Shown here: piece after piece, positions 1,615 through 63,777 of the stretch
Layout: each line of letters starts with the position of its first letter
Position numbering within the stretch: the stretch's first letter is position 1
NCBI RefSeq assembly: GCF_000014065.1
Contig: NC_008044.1
Location: 2,255,501-2,319,500 of the forward strand
Origin: Ruegeria sp. TM1040
GTDB taxonomy: Bacteria; Pseudomonadota; Alphaproteobacteria; Rhodobacterales; Rhodobacteraceae
DNA: 64,000 bases
Reading direction: 5' to 3'
The notes under the pieces: model-generated
What the model saw: only the letters and a program-made list of their open reading frames with translations
Told to the model about the DNA's origin: nothing
Database searches by the model: none
Made by a program: the position numbers and the translations under genes

Positions 1615-3045
1615 TCAGAGGCCCTTGGCGCGGTAGCTCGAGGCAACCTTGTCGATGGAGACGAGATATGCGGCGGTGCGCAGATCAGAGACGTCATCGC
1701 GTTCGTGCCACACCTGCCGCATGGACTGATAGGCAATCCGCATGGTGTCATCGAGACCCGAGCGCACCAGCTCCAGCTCACCTGCACCGCGGAGGTATTT
1801 TTCCTTGAACTTGGGATCGAGCGACCATGTCTTGCCCATGCTCTCAGAGAGCATTTCCAGTTGATCGACCACAAGCTGGTGGCGTGCCTCTTCCTGACGG
1901 CGCTGCATCCGGCCAAAGCGGATATGCGAGAGGTTCTTGACCCACTCAAAGTAGGAAACCGTCACACCGCCGGCGTTGGCATACATGTCCGGAATGATCA
2001 CCGTGCCCTTCTTGCGCAGGATCTCATCTGCGCCCGCGGTCACAGGACCGTTCGCAGCCTCGATGATCAGCTTGGCCTTCACGTTTTCGGCGTTGGAGAG
2101 GTTGATCACCCCCTCAAGCGCCGCCGGGATCAGGATGTCGCAGTCCTCTTCGAGGTATTTGGCGCCGTTCTTGATGTAGCGTCCCGACGGGTAGCCATCG
2201 ACGCCGTCATGCTTTTCGATCCACGCGCGCAGGTCTTCGATGTCGAGCCCGTTCTCATCGTAGAGACCGCCATCGCGTTCAATCACCGCAACGATCTTGC
2301 AGCCATCTTCCTCGGAGAGGAACTTGGCCGCGTGATAGCCCACATTCCCGAGGCCCTGCACGATGACGCGCTTGCCATCGAGGGTGCCAGAGAGACCGGC
2401 CTTGGCCTTGTCTTCCTCGTACCGGAAGAACTCCTGCAGTGCGTACTGCACGCCCCGGCCCGTGGCCTCGACGCGGCCTGCAATACCGCCAGCATTGAGC
2501 GGCTTGCCGGTGACACAGGCGCGGGCGTTGATGTCCGTGGTGTTCATCCGGGCGTATTGGTCCGCCATCCAGGCCATCTCGCGTTCGCCGGTGCCCATGT
2601 CGGGCGCGGGCACGTTCTGCGAGGGGTTGATCAGGTCGCGTTTGGCCAGCTCATAGGCAAAACGACGGGTGATCAGCTCTAGCTCGTGTTCGTCATACTG
2701 ACGCGGGTCGATGCGCAGACCGCCCTTGGAGCCCCCAAAGGGCGCTTCCACCAGCGCGCATTTGTAGGTCATCAGCGCCGCGAGCGCCTCCACCTCGTCC
2801 TGGTTCACCCCCATCGCGTAACGAATGCCGCCTTTGACCGGCTCCATATGCTCCGAGTGGACCGAGCGATACCCGGTGAACGTGTGGATCTGCCCGCGCA
2901 GGCGCACCCCAAAGCGGACCGTGTAGGTGGCGTTACAGACGCGGATCTTTTCCTCAAGCCCCGGCGGCAAATCCATCAGCGCCACGGCGCGGTTGAACAT
3001 GAGATCCACACTTTCACGGAAGCTTGGTTCTTTGAGATTGCTCAT
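1615..3045 (-). CDS. gdhA: Glu/Leu/Phe/Val family dehydrogenase (glutamate dehydrogenase)
   Basis: This 476-residue enzyme catalyses reversible oxidative deamination of glutamate to 2-oxoglutarate and ammonia in the cytoplasm. The dehydrogenase N-domain contains K71 in KGGIRY, K95 in MTYKCAL and K107 in FGGSKGG, which match substrate-binding and catalytic lysine motifs. A Rossmann domain with GLGNVG lies near residue 230. It is monocistronic with its own terminator. The length and the GLGNVG dinucleotide motif fit the shorter hexameric class rather than the very large GDH class; NAD versus NADP preference is not decided here. Symbol by family, not by characterised orthology. Confidence 0.9.
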   Translation of the reverse strand: MSNLKEPSFRESVDLMFNRAVALMDLPPGLEEKIRVCNATYTVRFGVRLRGQIHTFTGYRSVHSEHMEPVKGGIRYAMGVNQDEVEALAALMTYKCALVEAPFGGSKGGLRIDPRQYDEHELELITRRFAYELAKRDLINPSQNVPAPDMGTGEREMAWMADQYARMNTTDINARACVTGKPLNAGGIAGRVEATGRGVQYALQEFFRYEEDKAKAGLSGTLDGKRVIVQGLGNVGYHAAKFLSEEDGCKIVAVIERDGGLYDENGLDIEDLRAWIEKHDGVDGYPSGRYIKNGAKYLEEDCDILIPAALEGVINLSNAENVKAKLIIEAANGPVTAGADEILRKKGTVIIPDMYANAGGVTVSYFEWVKNLSHIRFGRMQRRQEEARHQLVVDQLEMLSESMGKTWSLDPKFKEKYLRGAGELELVRSGLDDTMRIAYQSMRQVWHERDDVSDLRTAAYLVSIDKVASSYRAKGL

Positions 3046-6443: not shown

Positions 6444-6878
6444 TTAAGGATCGATCACCAGATGCGGTTGCCCGTCAGAGGTCTGCTCGCGACTGAAGCC
6501 TTCAGGGCCAATCACGCCGTTGACCCGGCGTCTGAAACTGGAGAACCGCTGTGATGTGACCACGTCAACCGGCACCTCCAGATCCAGCTCCAGCCTGACC
6601 CAGCCCACGCGCCCCTCTACCGCGGTCGCCCGCAGCACGCGCGCGGAAAAGGGTTGCGACAGGTAGCGCCCCCGGACCACCTGCCCGGGCTGGTAACGCT
6701 GCGCCTCGGCCTGCGACAGCATCGCAGCGCATAGGTTCCAATCGCGAAACCCCAGCTGCCGGGCCACATGTTCAAGCGCCGCGCCGTGGCGCAGGCTCTC
6801 GCCCGCCTGCTGGCGGGCTGCGCGCCACTCTCTAGCCATGGCTTTGGCCTGTGCAATCGTTGGCAAATTCTCGGTCAT
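6444..6878 (-). CDS. Small glyoxalase superfamily-related protein
   Basis: This 144-residue cytoplasmic protein has an N-terminal half (AKAMAREWRAAR, then HGAALEHVARQLGFRDWN) resembling the small domain called glyoxalase-related in database families, in which a Q-LG-RDWN stretch is conserved. The C-terminal half is beta-rich with a conserved-looking LVIDP end. I see no glyoxalase metal-binding residues, so enzymatic activity is not claimed. Its ATG overlaps the MATE transporter stop by four bases, so it is translated with the exporter. Function unknown. Confidence 0.6.
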   Translation of the reverse strand: MTENLPTIAQAKAMAREWRAARQQAGESLRHGAALEHVARQLGFRDWNLCAAMLSQAEAQRYQPGQVVRGRYLSQPFSARVLRATAVEGRVGWVRLELDLEVPVDVVTSQRFSSFRRRVNGVIGPEGFSREQTSDGQPHLVIDP

Positions 6879-8257
6879 GCGCGGCGCTCCTGCACTTTGG
6901 AGGTCACTTGGTCACGCCGGCGACGAAGGTCCAGCAGAACCAGCCCCGTCAGCACAAGGAGCCCCGCCTCGGCAACGGGCGCAGCAAGCCAGATCCCGGG
7001 CTCCCCCCAAAGCGCAGCAAGCATAAAGGTCAGTGGGATCGAGAACAGATAGGGTTTGGAGAGCCCCAGAAGCGCAGCCCGCGGGGCATCTCCTATCGCC
7101 TGAAAATGCATTGCCACCATCATGAGCGGCCCCGCGAGCACAAAAAGAGCGCCAAGAATGGGCAGGATGCGCGCAACGTCTTCGATAACGCCCTGATCGT
7201 CCACAAACCACGCTGCAATCCATGCAGCGCCCCACGTCAGACCGGCCTGCATCACCGCGCAATAGATCAAGGCACTCACGACCGCGAACCGGAGGCTTTG
7301 CCCCACTCTAAGGATTTGACCTGCCCCATACAGGTTCCCGGTGATGCTCTGCATCGCATGCGACAGCCCCAAAAGCGGCAGGAACGTGAAGGTCAAAAGT
7401 CGTGTGATGACCCCATAGGCGCTCACCGTTGTTGCATAATCAGAGACATCAACCCATTGCAGTGCAAACATAATCACCGCCGACCCCAAGGCGATGCCGA
7501 TAAAGTTGAGACTCTGCGGCGCGCCCAGCGCAAGCATCCGCCCCCAGCCGCCCCAAAGGCTCTGTCGCCAAAGACAGCTTGGCCGCAAAACTGTATCGCC
7601 ACGCAGGCGAAACGCCACGATCAGCGAGAGCGCCAGAACCTGTGCCAAAGCCGTTCCCAACGCCGATCCCGCCACGCCCAATCCCGCTTGGGCGATCAGC
7701 AGATAGTTGAACGCAATATTCGACAGCGAGACGACAAGGCTCATGAGGGCCATCAGTCCGGCCCGGCCCTCGTTACGCAAGGCGTCGGAATTCACCGAGA
7801 GCACGAACAGGAGCGGCGTACACCCCACAGTGATCCGCAGATAGGTGTGCCCCATGTCAGCAAGGAGGCGGTCGCCCCCGGCGGCGGCATGCGCCACAGC
7901 GCTCCCCCAGAGCGCAAAAGCCGCCATGAGGCCCACCGCGACCGAGAGCGCCAGACCATGCGCCGCCGCAAAATCGGCCTGCGCCGCCTCGGTATCGCCC
8001 GCACCGAGATGACGGGCCAGCCGACTGGACATGCCGCTGGCCACCAGCGTTGCCAGAGCCACAACCAACATGTAGCCGGGAAACATCAGCGTCACAGCGG
8101 CCAAAGCCTCGGGCCCGACGAAATGCCCCAGAAACAGCGCGTCCGCCACGGTCAAAAAGCCGTTCATCCCCATCACAAAGATGATGGGCAACGCAGTTTT
8201 TGCATAAACCGGCCCCAAGCGGGCGGTCAAAAATCGATTTGGAGGGGAGGTAGACAT
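6875..8257 (-). CDS. MATE family efflux transporter
   Basis: A 460-residue multidrug and toxin extrusion-type transporter with about 12 hydrophobic segments arranged as two homologous halves. Recognisable family sequences include DALFLGHFVGPEALAAV near residue 40 and GMSSRLARHLGAGD near 90. Members exchange Na+ or H+ for cationic drugs or metabolites at the inner membrane. The substrate cannot be predicted. It is the first gene of a two-gene operon with the small glyoxalase-related gene and is divergent from the ammonium transporter fusion. Confidence 0.9.
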   Translation of the reverse strand: MSTSPPNRFLTARLGPVYAKTALPIIFVMGMNGFLTVADALFLGHFVGPEALAAVTLMFPGYMLVVALATLVASGMSSRLARHLGAGDTEAAQADFAAAHGLALSVAVGLMAAFALWGSAVAHAAAGGDRLLADMGHTYLRITVGCTPLLFVLSVNSDALRNEGRAGLMALMSLVVSLSNIAFNYLLIAQAGLGVAGSALGTALAQVLALSLIVAFRLRGDTVLRPSCLWRQSLWGGWGRMLALGAPQSLNFIGIALGSAVIMFALQWVDVSDYATTVSAYGVITRLLTFTFLPLLGLSHAMQSITGNLYGAGQILRVGQSLRFAVVSALIYCAVMQAGLTWGAAWIAAWFVDDQGVIEDVARILPILGALFVLAGPLMMVAMHFQAIGDAPRAALLGLSKPYLFSIPLTFMLAALWGEPGIWLAAPVAEAGLLVLTGLVLLDLRRRRDQVTSKVQERRA

Positions 8258-8562
8258 ATCCCCGATCTCCTCTTGCAGGTATCGCGCAAGAACTGGATGG
8301 GACCCGCATTACCACCCGCGCGACAGGCGTGGAGGATGATCAAAAGACATATCCGTATGCAAGACTTCACCAAGGCCAGAATGGCCAGCGGGCGGCAGGG
8401 GCTTGCTCCCTCGTCTTTCGCTAGGCCCTCGCGTCCCCTGCGTCAAGCCCAATGGCGGCACGGGACGTAAGGGCTGCGTAAAGGAGGTAGTAACGGTTTC
8501 TTGACCGCACGCGGCTATGGTGACTGTCGAAAACGTATCTTTTTCTTTGGGTATGTCCCCTG
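8258..8562. other. Divergent intergenic region between the MATE and Amt-GGDEF-EAL genes
   Basis: These 305 bp separate divergent genes. I see no RNA gene and no convincing palindrome. A GC-rich stretch near 8385-8480 is followed by an AT-richer segment near 8525-8555 just before the Amt-fusion start, which probably includes its promoter and leader. Confidence 0.4.
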
Positions 8563-11277
8563 ATGTCTGACCTCGACGCCTCGTGGATTCTGGTCTGCGC
8601 GCTTCTTGTGCTGCTGTTGCAGGCTGGCTTCCTCTGTCTTGAGGCTGGCACCGTTCGGGCGAAAAATTCCGCCAATGTCGCGCTGAAAAACCTGTCCGAT
8701 GTCTGCATCGTCAGTACCTGTTTCTGGCTGGTCGGCTTTGGCCTCATGTTTGGCGAGAGCTTCAATGGCCTCTTTGGAACCACACAGTTTTGGCTCGCGC
8801 TCGACAATGACAGCGGTCACGCGGCGTCGATTTTCCTGTTTCAGATGGCCTTTGCGGCAAGTGCAGCCACGATCGTCTCGGGCGCAGTTGCCGAGCGGGA
8901 GCGATTTCTGGGCTATATGGTGGTCTCTGTTGCGCTCAGCGCCCTTGTGTATCCGGTTGTCGGGCATTGGATCTGGAACCAGGCGGGCTGGCTGCGCCAG
9001 ATGGGATTTGTCGATTTTGCAGGCGCGACGGTTGTACACAGCGTGGGGGGATGGACCGCTCTGGTGACCATTATCATCCTCGGGCCGAGGCTCGGGCGAT
9101 ATGGCCCCAAGAAACGTCGGTTTGATGAGTACTCGATCTCTCTGGTCACGCTGGGCGGATTGCTCTTGTGGGTCGGCTGGGGTGCGTTCAACGGCGGCTC
9201 CGCTATGGCGTTTGGGACCGGTGTTGGCCCGATTATTGCGCGCACCATGCTGCTGGCGGCAGGCGCAGGGGTGGCGAGCATTGCCATCGGGCTTGGCCTT
9301 TTTCGGCACGTCAGGGCAGAGCTTTTGGTGAACGGCTTTCTCGGAGGATTGGTCGCGGGCACCGCCGGGGTGCACCTGATGACAGGCACAGTTGCCTTTG
9401 GCATCGGCGCCCTTGGCGCAGTCACCGTAATCATCGCCCGCGATATACTCGACGCGCTCAAGATCGACGATGTTGTGGGCGCCGTCCCCGTGCATCTGGC
9501 CGCGGGGTTGATCGGGACGCTCTCGATTGCCTTCACTGCCCCGGTTGACCTGTTGCCCGCAGGCAGCCGGCTGGCACAGCTGGGCATTCAGGCGCTGGGT
9601 ATCACTGCAGTTGGCGGATGGGTGGTCTGCTCGATGGCGCCGCTGATCCTGCTGCTGCGCGCAAGAGGTTTGCTGCGCGTCCACCCCAAGGACGAGGTGC
9701 GCGGGCTGAATCTCACCGAAAACAACCAACGAAACGCGCTTATGGACCTGCTGGCCGAAATGAAACGGCATCAGCGTTCCGGCTCTTTCAGCCGCCGCGT
9801 ACGCATCGACCGGTCCACCGAATACGGTGTGCTTGCCTACCGCTACAACCGGGTTCTCGACCGGGTGGAGGCGGAAATCAACGCACGTGTCGACTCGATC
9901 CGCAAGGAACGCATGAGCCGCCTTTTGGCCGAAGAGGCGTTTGAATCCATGCGCGAGGCGCAAGAAGAAAACGCCTGGTCGGCGCGGCATGACAAACTCA
10001 CCGGACTTGGCAACCGCAAGTACCTCGAAGAGGTTGCGGTCGAGACCAGCACCGGACCACTTGGCGCGACATTGCTCATTGCGATCGACCTAGATCGGTT
10101 CAAGGAGATCAATGACACCTACGGCCATGAGGCAGGAGATGTGGTGCTGGAACACACTGCCCAGCGGCTCTCCGAAAAGATCAGAACAGGGCGTGATTTT
10201 GCCTTCCGCATCGGCGGTGATGAGTTTGTAGTCCTCATGGAGTTTGCGGGCACCCAAGACGACGCTTTTGAATACTGCTCGGACTTGTTGTTCGAATTGC
10301 TGCAACCCGTCAGATACAAAGCAACCGATCTGCAGGTCGGTGCCTCCATTGGATTTGCCCTCTGCAAGCCGCCCGAAACGCTCGGCGCGGCGCTGCGACG
10401 CGCAGATCTTGCGCTCTATGCTTCAAAGGCTGACGGACGCTCCTGCGTCAACGCCTATTCCGCCTCCATCGGATCGGCTCATGACGAAAAGATGAACCTC
10501 ATACGGGATTTCAAACAGGCTTTCGCCAATAATGAAATCGAGGTGACGCTGCAGCCGCAGATCGATGGCAAGACCATGGAAATCGCCGGCTGTGAGGCGC
10601 TGGCGCGCTGGCACCATCCCGTGCGCGGCATCGTGAGTCCGGATGTTTTTGTACCCGTCGCAAAAGAAGTGAACATGCTGGCCGATCTTGATCGCCGAAT
10701 TCTCGATCTTGCCCTTGCGGCGTATTGGAATTTTGCGAGCCACGGCATCGCGCTTCCCAGCCTCTCGGTGAATGTCTCGGCGGAGCGGCTGGGGCACCCC
10801 GACTTGATCAAGGAACTCCAGCAGCGCGAGGATCTGCCACCAGATGGATTGGCGTTTGAACTCCTTGAAACGGTCTTTCTCGATCAGTTGACCGAGAATT
10901 ACGCCAACCAGATTGCCGCGCTCAAGGCGATGGGCATCGCAATTGAAATCGATGACTTTGGCACCGGGCACGCCAGCATCGCGGGGGTGCTCGCCCTGAA
11001 GCCCGACCGGCTCAAGATCGACCGGATGTTCACCTCCGGTATTGATGAAAAACCCGCCAGGCGCGATCTGATGCGCGGCCTCATCGAGATGGCCGCAAGT
11101 GCTGGGGCAGAAACGGTGGTTGAGGGAGTCGAGACGGAGGCGCAGGCACAGGTTCTGTCGGAGCTAGGCGCAGATGTGCTGCAAGGCTTTGCCTTTGCCC
11201 GCCCGATGGATCAGGAGCGCTTTTTGCTCTGGGCGCAGGACTGGAATGCAGCGCGCCAGATGCCAAAGACCGGATAA
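8563..11277 (+). CDS. Ammonium transporter fused to GGDEF and EAL domains
   Basis: A 904-residue fusion. Residues 1-370 are an Amt-family channel. The paired pore histidines correspond to H159 (VVHSVGG) and H311 (VPVHLAAG), the recruitment-site Asp to D151, and Phe-gate positions to F97 and F209 (WGAFNGGS). A charged, probably helical linker (about 382-470) leads to a GGDEF domain with intact GGDEF at 551-555; the product-inhibition RxxD is absent. Then comes an EAL domain with EAL at 678-680, NVSAERL, the DDFGTG motif, the K of LKPDRLKID, and EGVET. Both cyclase and phosphodiesterase signatures look catalytically complete. Inference: an inner-membrane ammonium receptor setting c-di-GMP. No glnK is adjacent. 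Confidence 0.93.
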   Translation: MSDLDASWILVCALLVLLLQAGFLCLEAGTVRAKNSANVALKNLSDVCIVSTCFWLVGFGLMFGESFNGLFGTTQFWLALDNDSGHAASIFLFQMAFAASAATIVSGAVAERERFLGYMVVSVALSALVYPVVGHWIWNQAGWLRQMGFVDFAGATVVHSVGGWTALVTIIILGPRLGRYGPKKRRFDEYSISLVTLGGLLLWVGWGAFNGGSAMAFGTGVGPIIARTMLLAAGAGVASIAIGLGLFRHVRAELLVNGFLGGLVAGTAGVHLMTGTVAFGIGALGAVTVIIARDILDALKIDDVVGAVPVHLAAGLIGTLSIAFTAPVDLLPAGSRLAQLGIQALGITAVGGWVVCSMAPLILLLRARGLLRVHPKDEVRGLNLTENNQRNALMDLLAEMKRHQRSGSFSRRVRIDRSTEYGVLAYRYNRVLDRVEAEINARVDSIRKERMSRLLAEEAFESMREAQEENAWSARHDKLTGLGNRKYLEEVAVETSTGPLGATLLIAIDLDRFKEINDTYGHEAGDVVLEHTAQRLSEKIRTGRDFAFRIGGDEFVVLMEFAGTQDDAFEYCSDLLFELLQPVRYKATDLQVGASIGFALCKPPETLGAALRRADLALYASKADGRSCVNAYSASIGSAHDEKMNLIRDFKQAFANNEIEVTLQPQIDGKTMEIAGCEALARWHHPVRGIVSPDVFVPVAKEVNMLADLDRRILDLALAAYWNFASHGIALPSLSVNVSAERLGHPDLIKELQQREDLPPDGLAFELLETVFLDQLTENYANQIAALKAMGIAIEIDDFGTGHASIAGVLALKPDRLKIDRMFTSGIDEKPARRDLMRGLIEMAASAGAETVVEGVETEAQAQVLSELGADVLQGFAFARPMDQERFLLWAQDWNAARQMPKTG

Positions 11278-11334
11278 GCCCCTAAAAAGGCGCGCATCAT
11301 CTGTGGTGCGATCTTTGGCGCGGTCACCAGCCGC

Positions 11335-11826
11335 TCAGCCTGCGTCGCGCTCGACCATCAGTGCCGCAAGAATCTCGGTCATGGTCTTGGTTTGGGAGCC
11401 GGGAGTCACCCCGCCCACACCGATGCGCCGTCCCATGCGCCACCAAAGACCGGGATACCAGCAGCGCTCTGCAGATGTCGTGCTGCGCATAAGGAACCCG
11501 TTTGAAGGCTTGAACGCAAAAAAGCCGCGATCAAGATGCTGCAGATCCTGGATGCGAATGATCTCGGTGCCATCCGAACAGCGCAGCCCCGCCGCCGTGA
11601 GCTCGATGCGATGCGCGGTGGCATGCCACATGCGATAGCCCATCCAGAGCGCCAAGCCCGACACAAGCATCAGGAACCCCTGCCATGCCACGCCCGGTGT
11701 GCTCGCCATGGCGACATAGAGGGTCATCAGCCCCAGCCCGATCAACATGGCCACGCCAATCACCCGGCGGGCTGGCGATGCTTCCACGGTGGCGAGTACT
11801 TCGCCGCTGTCGATTTCGTGGCTCAT
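11335..11826 (-). CDS. Small membrane protein of unknown function
   Basis: This 163-residue protein has two hydrophobic segments (about 22-42 and 48-66) followed by a soluble domain that looks like a small PH-type beta domain (HRIELTAAGLRCSDGTEI, then a conserved-looking RGFFAFKPSNGFL). Similar two-helix plus beta-domain proteins are common in Rhodobacteraceae and mostly unnamed. It lies between the Amt fusion (convergent) and the XRE-cupin regulator (same strand, 82 bp away). No function is proposed. Confidence 0.7.
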   Translation of the reverse strand: MSHEIDSGEVLATVEASPARRVIGVAMLIGLGLMTLYVAMASTPGVAWQGFLMLVSGLALWMGYRMWHATAHRIELTAAGLRCSDGTEIIRIQDLQHLDRGFFAFKPSNGFLMRSTTSAERCWYPGLWWRMGRRIGVGGVTPGSQTKTMTEILAALMVERDAG

Positions 11827-21975: not shown

Positions 21976-22074
21976 TAAACACCCGCTCACACCAAGAGTG
22001 CTCCGTTCGTCTATCGGTTAGGACGCCAGGTTTTCAACCTGGAAAGAGGGGTTCGATTCCCCTACGGAGTACCA
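21976..22074 (+). repeat. Direct repeat copy 1 (tRNA-Glu plus 24-bp leader)
   Basis: A 99-bp segment identical to 22265-22363, offset by 289 bp. It contains the whole tRNA-Glu gene and 24 bp upstream, so the duplication included promoter-proximal leader sequence. Confidence 0.9.
22000..22074 (+). tRNA. tRNA-Glu(TTC)
   Basis: A 75-nt cloverleaf including encoded CCA. The acceptor arm GCTCCGT pairs with ACGGAGT (first pair G-U), the anticodon stem CCAGG/CCTGG encloses loop TTTTCAA with anticodon TTC, and the T arm is GGGGTTCGATTCCCC. It is located downstream of recJ. Confidence 0.97.
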
Positions 22075-22264: not shown

Positions 22265-22363
22265 TAAACACCCGCTCACACCAAGAGTGCTCCGTTCGTC
22301 TATCGGTTAGGACGCCAGGTTTTCAACCTGGAAAGAGGGGTTCGATTCCCCTACGGAGTACCA
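22265..22363 (+). repeat. Direct repeat copy 2 (tRNA-Glu plus 24-bp leader)
   Basis: The identical second copy of the segment at 21976-22074. Sequence outside the 99 bp diverges immediately on both sides. Confidence 0.9.
22289..22363 (+). tRNA. tRNA-Glu(TTC), second copy
   Basis: Identical in sequence to the tRNA at 22000-22074, including CCA. It is followed directly by a T-rich stretch that could end transcription of both tRNAs. Confidence 0.97.
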
Positions 22364-26203: not shown

Positions 26204-27226
26204 TCAGGCAGACTTGCTGTTTTGCTCGACCAGATCCATCTCATCTTCGAGGCTGGGCGTATAGAACATATGCTGCGCTTTGCCCGCCCGTTTGGAGGCG
26301 TAGAGCGCAAGGTCGGCCTGATGCAATAGCGTCGCCGGCAGAGGCTGCGCGACATCCGTGGACAAGGTGGTGCCTGCAGAGGCGGAAATCCGGCACTCAT
26401 CCGCGCCATACATGATCGGCTCTTCAAGGCGCTCGATCAGGCGGCAGGCCAGATCATTGATCCGGTTGCGATCCATCAACCCCTCAAACACCAGCACAAA
26501 CTCGTCACCACCGATGCGCGCAACGGTGTCAGATTTGCGTGTACACTCCACCATGATGGAGGCCACCCGCTGCAACACCGCATCACCTGCGGCATGACCG
26601 TAGGTGTCATTGACAGATTTGAAGAAGTCGAGATCGACATTCATCAGGGCAAAGTCGCGCCCGCCGCTGATCAGGCGGTTCAACACATGGTCCATGGCGC
26701 GACGGTTCTTCAGCCCGGTCAACGTATCGGTAAAGGCCTGCTCCTCGGCGGCAATCTTGGCCCCCTGCAAGCGCAGGTTCAGCTGGCGCGACGCCTCCAT
26801 AGCGGCAGATTTCGCCTCCACCAGGTAAAGCATCTCGATCGTGAGATCCGTGGGCGAGAAATCCTGACTGGTCAGGTTGAAGTCGCGCACCGCATCCAGC
26901 ACCGAAATCCCGAAAGAGAGATTTATGAATGCGCCCCGCCCCTTGGGGAGCGGAACCAACACGCCCTTCATCCGGGTGTGCGGCGCGTCATGAAGCTGAA
27001 AGTGCAGTTTGCTGCCAGCGGTATTCATGAGATCAGCAACGGCTTTGACGGAGCGAGGCCGCTGCAGGTCCAGCACCTCGAGCACCGGTTTGCCCAACCA
27101 GCCATTGTCGCCCCGGATCTTGTCGAGGGTCGGACCGTGGCTCACGATCAGGCCATCCGCGTCAATGATCACATGCATTGGGCAGAGTTGGTCGGCAAGG
27201 CCGGTCAGCTGTTCGAAGGTCATCAT
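26204..27226 (-). CDS. Diguanylate cyclase with N-terminal HNOBA (H-NOX-associated) domain
   Basis: This 340-residue cytoplasmic protein has residues 10-135 resembling the haem-NO-binding-associated domain (LADQLCPMHVIIDADGLIV, FINLSFGIS, DFSPTDLTIEMLYLVE). A short helical connector (135-165) leads into a GGDEF domain with intact GGDEF at 239-243 and an intact inhibitory RxxD (RKSD, 230-233). It should make c-di-GMP and be product-inhibited. Its ATG overlaps the H-NOX-like gene stop (ATGA), so the two proteins are made together, and H-NOX proteins are known to control such partners by direct contact. It ends at its own terminator. Confidence 0.92.
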   Translation of the reverse strand: MMTFEQLTGLADQLCPMHVIIDADGLIVSHGPTLDKIRGDNGWLGKPVLEVLDLQRPRSVKAVADLMNTAGSKLHFQLHDAPHTRMKGVLVPLPKGRGAFINLSFGISVLDAVRDFNLTSQDFSPTDLTIEMLYLVEAKSAAMEASRQLNLRLQGAKIAAEEQAFTDTLTGLKNRRAMDHVLNRLISGGRDFALMNVDLDFFKSVNDTYGHAAGDAVLQRVASIMVECTRKSDTVARIGGDEFVLVFEGLMDRNRINDLACRLIERLEEPIMYGADECRISASAGTTLSTDVAQPLPATLLHQADLALYASKRAGKAQHMFYTPSLEDEMDLVEQNSKSA

Positions 27227-31044: not shown

Positions 31045-32448
31045 GTGCAAGGCACGATCCTAGTCATAGATGGGGTATCCACCAATCGCATCATCTTGAA
31101 GGTGCAACTGACAGCAGCCTGTTTCCAGGTGCTGCAGGCCGACAGCCTGTCGGCCGCGATGGCCCTGATGAAAGACAACCGCCCGGATCTCGTCCTCACT
31201 GCAATGACCCTGCCGGACGGCGATGCCGCGGATGTCAAACGCGCCCTGGACCGGGTGCGCCATGGCGTTGGGGTGCCGGTGATTGCGCTCTGCCCGCAAA
31301 ACGATCGCGGCACCCGCATCATGGCGCTGTCGGCGGGGATCGACGAGGTGCTGCCGCTTCCGGTGGACGACATGATCCTGCAGGCGCGCATCCGCAGCCT
31401 GTTGCGCATGCGCATGCAAGACGACGAACTGCACCTGCGCGAAGAGGGCGTTGCCGCCTTCTCCGTACCGCTGAAGGACACCACCGCCGTGCAGATCACA
31501 CAATCGGATGCGACTGTCGCATTGGTTTGTCATGATCTGCAGACGGCGCAAAAGTGGAAATCCCGCCTCAGCGCCAGCGTGGACTTCCGTCTGAAAGCTT
31601 ACAATGTCGACGCGATCCAGGATCTGATGCGCACGCCGGTGCCGGATGTGATCGTGATCGAGCTTAACGAACACTCGGCTGGCATGGCGCTACGTCTGTT
31701 GGCGGATCTGCGTGCCCGGATCAGCACCCGCGACAGTGTGGTGATCGCGGTGCCGAACCCCGCCGATGCCAGCATCGCGGCAGAGGCGCTGGACCGGGGT
31801 GCGCATGACGTCTTGCACTGCGGCTTTCAGGTGGATGAACTGGCCCTACGGATCACCGCGCAGCTTGCACATCAGCAGCGCGCCGAAATGATCCGCAACA
31901 CCCTGCGTGATGGCTATCGTGCGGCGATGCGTGATCCGATGACCGGGCTCTACAATCGCCGCTACGCACGCCCGTTCCTCGAACAGGTGACCCAAGACGC
32001 CCAATCTGCGGGATCAAATTTCGCCGTGATGGTTGCGGATCTGGACCATTTCAAGCGCATCAACGATGCCTATGGCCACCCGGTGGGCGATGCGGTGCTG
32101 ATCGAAGCCGCGCGTCGCCTTCAAGCGGAGTTGCGTGGTTGCGACCTGCTGGCGCGGATCGGTGGGGAGGAGTTCATGCTGGTGCTGCCGGATCTGCACC
32201 CCGACGAGGCAAGCACCGTGGCCAACCGACTGTGCCGCGCGATCAGCGGCAGCCCCTTTGTGGTCAAAGGCTGCGCTCAGCCTCTCGAGGTTACAATCAG
32301 CGTCGGCGCCGTCGTCGCGCAGCATGGCACGCAGCCGTTGAGCGCCGATGATCTCTTTGTGGCGGCGGACCGCACGCTCTATGAGGCCAAGCACGCGGGC
32401 CGTAACCAGGCCGCGATCAAGGGGCTCACACAGAGCGCCGCCGCCTGA
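31045..32448 (+). CDS. PleD-like diguanylate cyclase with two degenerate receiver domains
   Basis: This 467-residue protein has REC-REC-GGDEF order. The start is a GTG (MQGTILVIDG) with AAGG upstream; the longer frame to 30961 is unlikely. In the first receiver the expected phospho-Asp aligns with Ala53 (DLVLTAMTLP) and the acidic pair is reduced to ID; the second receiver (from VALVCHDLQ) also lacks a convincing acceptor. The GGDEF domain is intact as GGEEF with an RxxD inhibitory site (RGCD) upstream, so it should make c-di-GMP independently of classical phosphorylation. Divergent from DUF3572. Confidence 0.9.
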   Translation: MQGTILVIDGVSTNRIILKVQLTAACFQVLQADSLSAAMALMKDNRPDLVLTAMTLPDGDAADVKRALDRVRHGVGVPVIALCPQNDRGTRIMALSAGIDEVLPLPVDDMILQARIRSLLRMRMQDDELHLREEGVAAFSVPLKDTTAVQITQSDATVALVCHDLQTAQKWKSRLSASVDFRLKAYNVDAIQDLMRTPVPDVIVIELNEHSAGMALRLLADLRARISTRDSVVIAVPNPADASIAAEALDRGAHDVLHCGFQVDELALRITAQLAHQQRAEMIRNTLRDGYRAAMRDPMTGLYNRRYARPFLEQVTQDAQSAGSNFAVMVADLDHFKRINDAYGHPVGDAVLIEAARRLQAELRGCDLLARIGGEEFMLVLPDLHPDEASTVANRLCRAISGSPFVVKGCAQPLEVTISVGAVVAQHGTQPLSADDLFVAADRTLYEAKHAGRNQAAIKGLTQSAAA

Positions 32449-63377: not shown

Positions 63378-63777
63378 TGTCTTGCTCCTTGCGGGTCTGA
63401 CCCAGGGTTTGCCCATCTCTTGACAAAGACATGCCCCATGGCGCAAGGAAATTTCGTTGGTTCCCGAAGGTGACAGCCTTTGGGCGAAGAGGGAATGTGT
63501 CGGGCCGGGATCATCCTTGCTCCAAACACAGCCGCCCCCGCGACCGTGACCGGAGAGGTCTTCCAACGCCACTGGCGCGCCCCTTGTGGGCAGGCCGGGA
63601 AGGCAGGGAGACCGTTCGCGCCCCACTCGGGGCGGATCTATCCGCAAGCCGGGAGACCTGCCAACGCGTGAGAACCGGCGGACGGGGTGTGCCGCGACCG
63701 GTTGAGGGCCTGCCAGCACTTGCGCGCGCCCCCATCTGGCCTGCCCCGCTTCGCCCCAGAGGAGGAGAAAAGGCCGC
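63378..63777. other. Intergenic region between cobO and the DUF1636 gene
   Basis: A 400-bp region between divergent genes. Most of it is the plus-strand cobalamin riboswitch (63456-63663) followed by a GC-rich expression-platform segment up to the DUF1636 RBS (GGAGGAG). The first 78 bp hold the cobO promoter side. Confidence 0.6.
63456..63663 (+). ncRNA. Cobalamin (B12) riboswitch
   Basis: The segment has the ordered conserved parts of a cobalamin riboswitch: GGTTCCC near the start, GAGGGAAT with a following pseudoknot/paired region, CCGCCCCCGCGACCGTGACC, CGGAGAG, GCCACTGG, CCGGGAAGGC, and the B12 box GCCGGGAGACCTGCC at the 3' end. It should bind adenosylcobalamin and turn down the plus-strand gene starting at 63778. 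The exact 5' boundary is approximate. Confidence 0.9.

Follow-up and report, generated by a model that had tools for sequence, protein, structure and literature searches.

The window, which here means the whole stretch of 64,000 nucleotides that was analysed, holds a gene in which an ammonium transporter (Amt) domain, a HAMP-like linker, a GGDEF domain and an EAL domain follow one another (Table 1). The initial annotation had read this gene as one polypeptide combining an Amt channel with both c-di-GMP domains, and the single uninterrupted frame, with three Pfam matches along it, bears this out. The signalling output lies on the same chain as the Amt, in one ORF, as is characteristic of signalling Amts. 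Two structure predictions reached mean pLDDT values of 52.5 and 46.5, and the 11 helices of the Amt part are seen in these low-confidence models only.

Table 1. Features of the fusion gene and of its immediate surroundings (positions in the window).
Feature	Positions	Strand	Basis
Whole gene: Amt, HAMP-like linker, GGDEF, EAL; 904 aa	8563..11277	+	ORF list, Pfam, orthologues of 904-911 aa
Amt domain (residues 8-387)	8584..9723	+	Pfam PF00909 (Ammonium_transp), 9.6e-95
Relay linker, HAMP-like (residues 384-448): two helices joined by connector 'SGSFSRRVRIDRSTEYG', the second containing conserved E and N	9712..9906	+	Family linkers against Pfam HAMP, profile match
Helix running into the cyclase (residues 449-473)	9907..9981	+	Continuous helix 420-480 in model, partly pLDDT <50
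GGDEF domain (residues 474-627); intact catalytic motif, T542 in place of the primary I-site arginine	9982..10443	+	Pfam 3.8e-34, residue check
EAL phosphodiesterase domain (residues 648-881), all catalytic residues present	10504..11205	+	Pfam 6.2e-62, residue check
DNA missing at this site in relatives; approximate, ends ± tens of bases	8452..11325		Flank alignments, six other Tritonibacter genomes
MATE-type transporter, flanking; older gene order, outside the system	6875..8257	-	Pfam MatE 9.8e-35, order in relatives
163-aa protein, no Pfam match, other flank; near MATE gene in relatives	11335..11826	-	Order in relatives

Domains and active sites of the fusion

The Amt part belongs to the Amt/Mep/Rh family (PF00909) by its twin-His pair, Phe gate and selectivity filter: H159/H311, D151, F97/F209, W138 and S213 are all present. 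The three residues singled out by the initial annotation, H159, H311 and D151, are as claimed and are invariant across nine orthologues. The same holds for the two enzymatic domains, which had been called intact. The diguanylate cyclase active site is complete (D509, N517, D526 and GGDEF at 551-555), as is the metal-binding and catalytic set of the EAL domain (E678, N737, E766/E769, D797, D798, K818, E854 and Q874), and none of these residues varies among nine orthologues. The inhibitory RxxD site, described as lost, reads T542-G-R-D545, and its arginine is missing in 9/9 orthologues; this site is optional within the GGDEF family.

Some GGDEF-EAL proteins, of the LapD type, are receptors with degenerate motifs, and on this precedent the fusion could be a c-di-GMP receptor and not an enzyme, its catalytic domains serving ligand binding only. 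Such a role is scarcely credible here, as the two active sites are complete, without variation among orthologues, and the site that has been lost is the inhibitory, c-di-GMP-binding one. Over the whole GGDEF-EAL part, the best NCBIfam scores are those of phosphodiesterases such as DibA, far under the cut-offs, a weak hint that breakdown dominates. We think phosphodiesterase activity the more likely dominant output of the fusion, with a GGDEF domain that would be either active or a GTP-binding regulator.

The putative buried ammonium site and the linker

Ks-Amt5 of Kuenenia stuttgartiensis (PDB 6eu6) is an ammonium sensor histidine kinase whose kinase activity responds to NH4+ (PMC5764959), and is a characterised case of the Amt-histidine kinase fusions that the initial annotation mentions as ammonium sensors. 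Its two-ammonium site consists of Q24, E31, N47, D50, T51, T109 and T112, its pore is blocked by F27, Y30 and F34, and according to its authors it contains no HAMP domain (PMC5764959). The fusion resembles Ks-Amt5 in its N-terminal Amt receptor module, its buried site, the lack of an adjacent glnK and its position on the same side of the Amt tree; it differs in its output, GGDEF-EAL instead of a histidine kinase, and in its pore.

The equivalents of the Ks-Amt5 ligands in the fusion are Q20, E27, N43, D46, V47, T103 and S106: five of seven are identical, one is a conservative replacement (T112 to S106), and T51 is replaced by V47. These residues are invariant in the nine orthologues, and the Q-E-N-D-T set is kept in 23/24 other fusions of our site table, the exception (L065) having N and A in place of D50 and T109. 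The set is absent from E. coli AmtB, A. fulgidus Amt1 and the glnK-linked Amt of the genome itself, as well as from three Amts similar to the latter, these four reading A-E-N-L-S instead, with Q and D missing. Both AmtB and the genome's own Amt share the Amt fold, twin-His pair, Phe gate and filter with the fusion, but their buried site is incomplete and neither carries an output domain; the genome's Amt, moreover, adjoins glnK. The Q-E-N-D-T set also occurs in five stand-alone Amts with no glnK within 1.5 kb, so that it marks a wider group than the fused proteins, in a set of relatives whose choice by similarity to the fusion's Amt favours sensor-like sequences. These five (L040, L044, L045, L047 and L048), with their putative buried site, are possible sensors acting with a separate partner.

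A pore block of the Ks-Amt5 type was not found in the fusion: F23 is shared, and L26 and T30 differ. With two of the three blocking residues absent, the protein may still transport ammonium. Filter, Phe gate and twin-His pair being intact as well, the Amt part could be a transceptor that carries ammonium and drives the output by flux instead of by binding at the buried site. We consider this rather unlikely, given that the buried-site ligands are kept throughout the fused family and missing in transporters such as AmtB, and that the fused Amts form a branch of their own.

The linker (residues 384-448) can be aligned across fusions of every output type; one N is the same in all of them and one E in nearly all. 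Pfam HAMP matches are found in 14/21 family linkers (best 9.9e-6), any other family being matched by two linkers at most. The window linker by itself has no match to Pfam HAMP (PF00672) with E limits of 1 or 10, and for this reason we call it HAMP-like. A profile of the family linkers compared with HAMP domains of the same genome gave a probability of 91, against 2 for the reversed profile and 14 or less for 100 column shuffles, and a subset profile built from the window linker and the GGDEF-EAL linkers closest to it gave 77. In a profile search of the PDB, the linker retrieved Amt-GGDEF chains and then, more weakly, a HAMP-bearing kinase.

Orthologues, genomic setting and other fusions

A search for full-length homologues, proposed as a check with the initial annotation, found the same architecture in eight other Rhodobacteraceae records (Leisingera, Tritonibacter mobilis, Roseobacter SK209-2-6 and a MAG) at 66-78% identity. 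The match covers residues 1-904 in five records and 1-895 to 1-899 in the other three, with ORFs of 904-911 aa throughout. These orthologues, together with low dN/dS, rule out an assembly or annotation artefact. Full-length matches are present in 2/395 genomes of the family sample and 2/18 of the genus, and strong matches to the Amt-plus-linker part in 27/398 sampled Pseudomonadota genomes.

Between the window and T. mobilis (L010), dN/dS (NG86) is 0.108 for Amt, 0.084 for the linker, 0.048 for EAL and 0.081 for the whole gene, dS being undefined for GGDEF; between two further orthologues (L009 and L014) it is 0.036, 0.021, 0.066, 0.041 and 0.043 for Amt, linker, GGDEF, EAL and whole gene, respectively; all these ratios are rough, since finite dS exceeds 1 throughout. 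The most distant orthologue, L015, for which dS is undefined in most domains of both pairs, yields finite values of 0.159 for the linker (against the window) and 0.041 for Amt (against L010). Every ratio that could be computed indicates restraint on nonsynonymous change; the one for GGDEF comes from a single Leisingera pair. The gene stands single, occurs in few species and has surroundings that are mostly unrelated, and might on these grounds encode an active c-di-GMP half that merely uses its Amt half as a membrane anchor, free of ammonium control. This is very unlikely, as the Amt domain is restrained too in both of the pairs first named and its binding-site residues are invariant in nine orthologues.

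The initial annotation had also noted that no glnK is adjacent; indeed, none lies anywhere in the 64,000-nt window. Likewise, no glnK occurs in any orthologue locus or in 23/24 other fusion loci, and canonical Amts have it beside them in 4/4 cases. The genome's own glnK-amt pair lies elsewhere (L080, 5644-7336), with the Amt after glnK. In the proposed inspection of homologue neighbourhoods, contexts proved mostly unrelated, and common flanks are confined to four related Leisingera-type records, outside which no conserved operon partner was found; the remaining orthologues differ. None of the window's tested neighbours was found in any orthologue locus. Among those neighbours is a Glu/Leu/Phe/Val dehydrogenase-family gene (1615-3045, minus strand), 5.5 kb from the fusion, and its lack of a match in the orthologue loci suggests that it is probably unrelated to the fusion.

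In six other Tritonibacter genomes the flanks align up to about 8399-8450 and again from about 11326-11345, with no fusion between. The gap between the MATE and 163-aa genes holds a different ORF in two of these six, and the inserts differ between Tritonibacter species (window 8450-11335; L139 2998-4164; L141 170-1350), which suggests that the spot may often take up genes. The T. mobilis fusion sits on another contig than the MATE/163-aa site. Transfer of the single gene into this site is a simpler reading than loss elsewhere. No plasmid record covering 80% of the query was found at the limit used, and a crude sigma-54 promoter pattern had no match in the 300 bases upstream of each gene.

The fusion type as such is already known: Amt-GGDEF chains are in the PDB, Amt-PAS-GGDEF-EAL proteins occur in many Pseudomonadota, and Ks-Amt5 is a precedent. 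The chains of PDB 8qpf, 8qj3 and 8qj4, entitled 'Ammonium transporter', match residues 7-647 of the fusion (1.4e-108). They share the buried-site Q/E/N/D/T, a related linker and the lack of a PAS-sized insert; however, they stop after GGDEF, with no EAL, and their motif is GGEEF. A literature search of limited scope found no papers on Amt-GGDEF-EAL proteins or on PDB 8qpf/8qj3.

We further annotated 24 fused or extended Amt ORFs, consisting of the longer Pseudomonadota matches together with a small number taken from family and genus. Their Pfam outputs are PAS-GGDEF-EAL (14), MCP (6), kinase (2), PAS only (1) and no recognised output (1). The 14 PAS-GGDEF-EAL proteins, from Pseudomonadota, follow the fusion in the order of their parts (Amt, HAMP-like linker, GGDEF, EAL), but all 14 insert at least one PAS between linker and GGDEF and most keep RxxD, whereas the roseobacter type has neither. 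It is the sole GGDEF-EAL form without PAS among the fusions annotated, and its distinguishing traits are the missing PAS and the missing I-site arginine. The six Amt-MCP fusions (L062, L073, L074, L075, L076 and L077) keep the buried site and are candidate ammonium chemoreceptors.

The Amt tree comprises 71 domains. A branch with support 99/89 divides it, and every fused Amt, Ks-Amt5 and 8qpf among them, is found on the same side; several changes of output are needed along the tree. With its midpoint root, long branches that meet in places, and relatives picked by similarity to the query, the tree is best read as support for a kinship of the fused Amts and not as a dated history.

A possible route from ammonium to c-di-GMP

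Taken together, the fusion is probably a receptor for ammonium in the membrane that sets c-di-GMP turnover, with binding at a putative buried site relayed through the HAMP-like linker. Ammonium would enter a presumed Amt-fold trimer through the usual selectivity filter and would be held in the membrane-buried site formed by Q20, E27, N43, D46, T103 and S106. Occupancy of this site would shift the C-terminal helix, a movement that would reach GGDEF-EAL through the HAMP-like linker and the helix after it, and the balance between making and breaking c-di-GMP would change, in whichever direction. The proposal of an ammonium-responsive c-di-GMP enzyme, made with the initial annotation, thus gains from the Ks-Amt5-like site and from the grouping with signalling Amts in the tree. 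Its emphasis on the twin-His pair is misplaced: this pair is found in nearly every Amt of the site table, transporter or sensor.

A more specific version is that roseobacters share a PAS-less ammonium receptor, consisting of a trimeric Amt and a HAMP-like relay, lacking a product-feedback site and travelling as a single movable gene; we put this forward tentatively, as a possibility that is rather less probable than its opposite. An effect on the choice between biofilm and motility would follow from the role of c-di-GMP in general.

For marine bacteria, ammonium is one of the main sources of nitrogen; a single protein that linked it directly to c-di-GMP would couple nutrient supply to attachment or swimming. 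More generally, the buried-site residues combined with a HAMP-like linker would provide a testable rule for recognising sensor Amts. The architecture also raises the question of how enzymes that normally act in pairs are driven by a membrane module with threefold symmetry.

Several other elements were observed in the window. An antisense ORF of 491 aa (8515-9990, minus strand) overlaps the fusion gene, and further GGDEF-like ORFs, similar to the GGDEF part of the fusion, lie at about 26234-26758 (minus) and at 31696-32406 (plus). Two tRNA genes (22000-22071 and 22289-22360, plus strand), about 290 bases apart and with equal Rfam scores, are possibly duplicates, and a Cobalamin riboswitch is found at 63441-63679 (plus strand, 85.6 bits).
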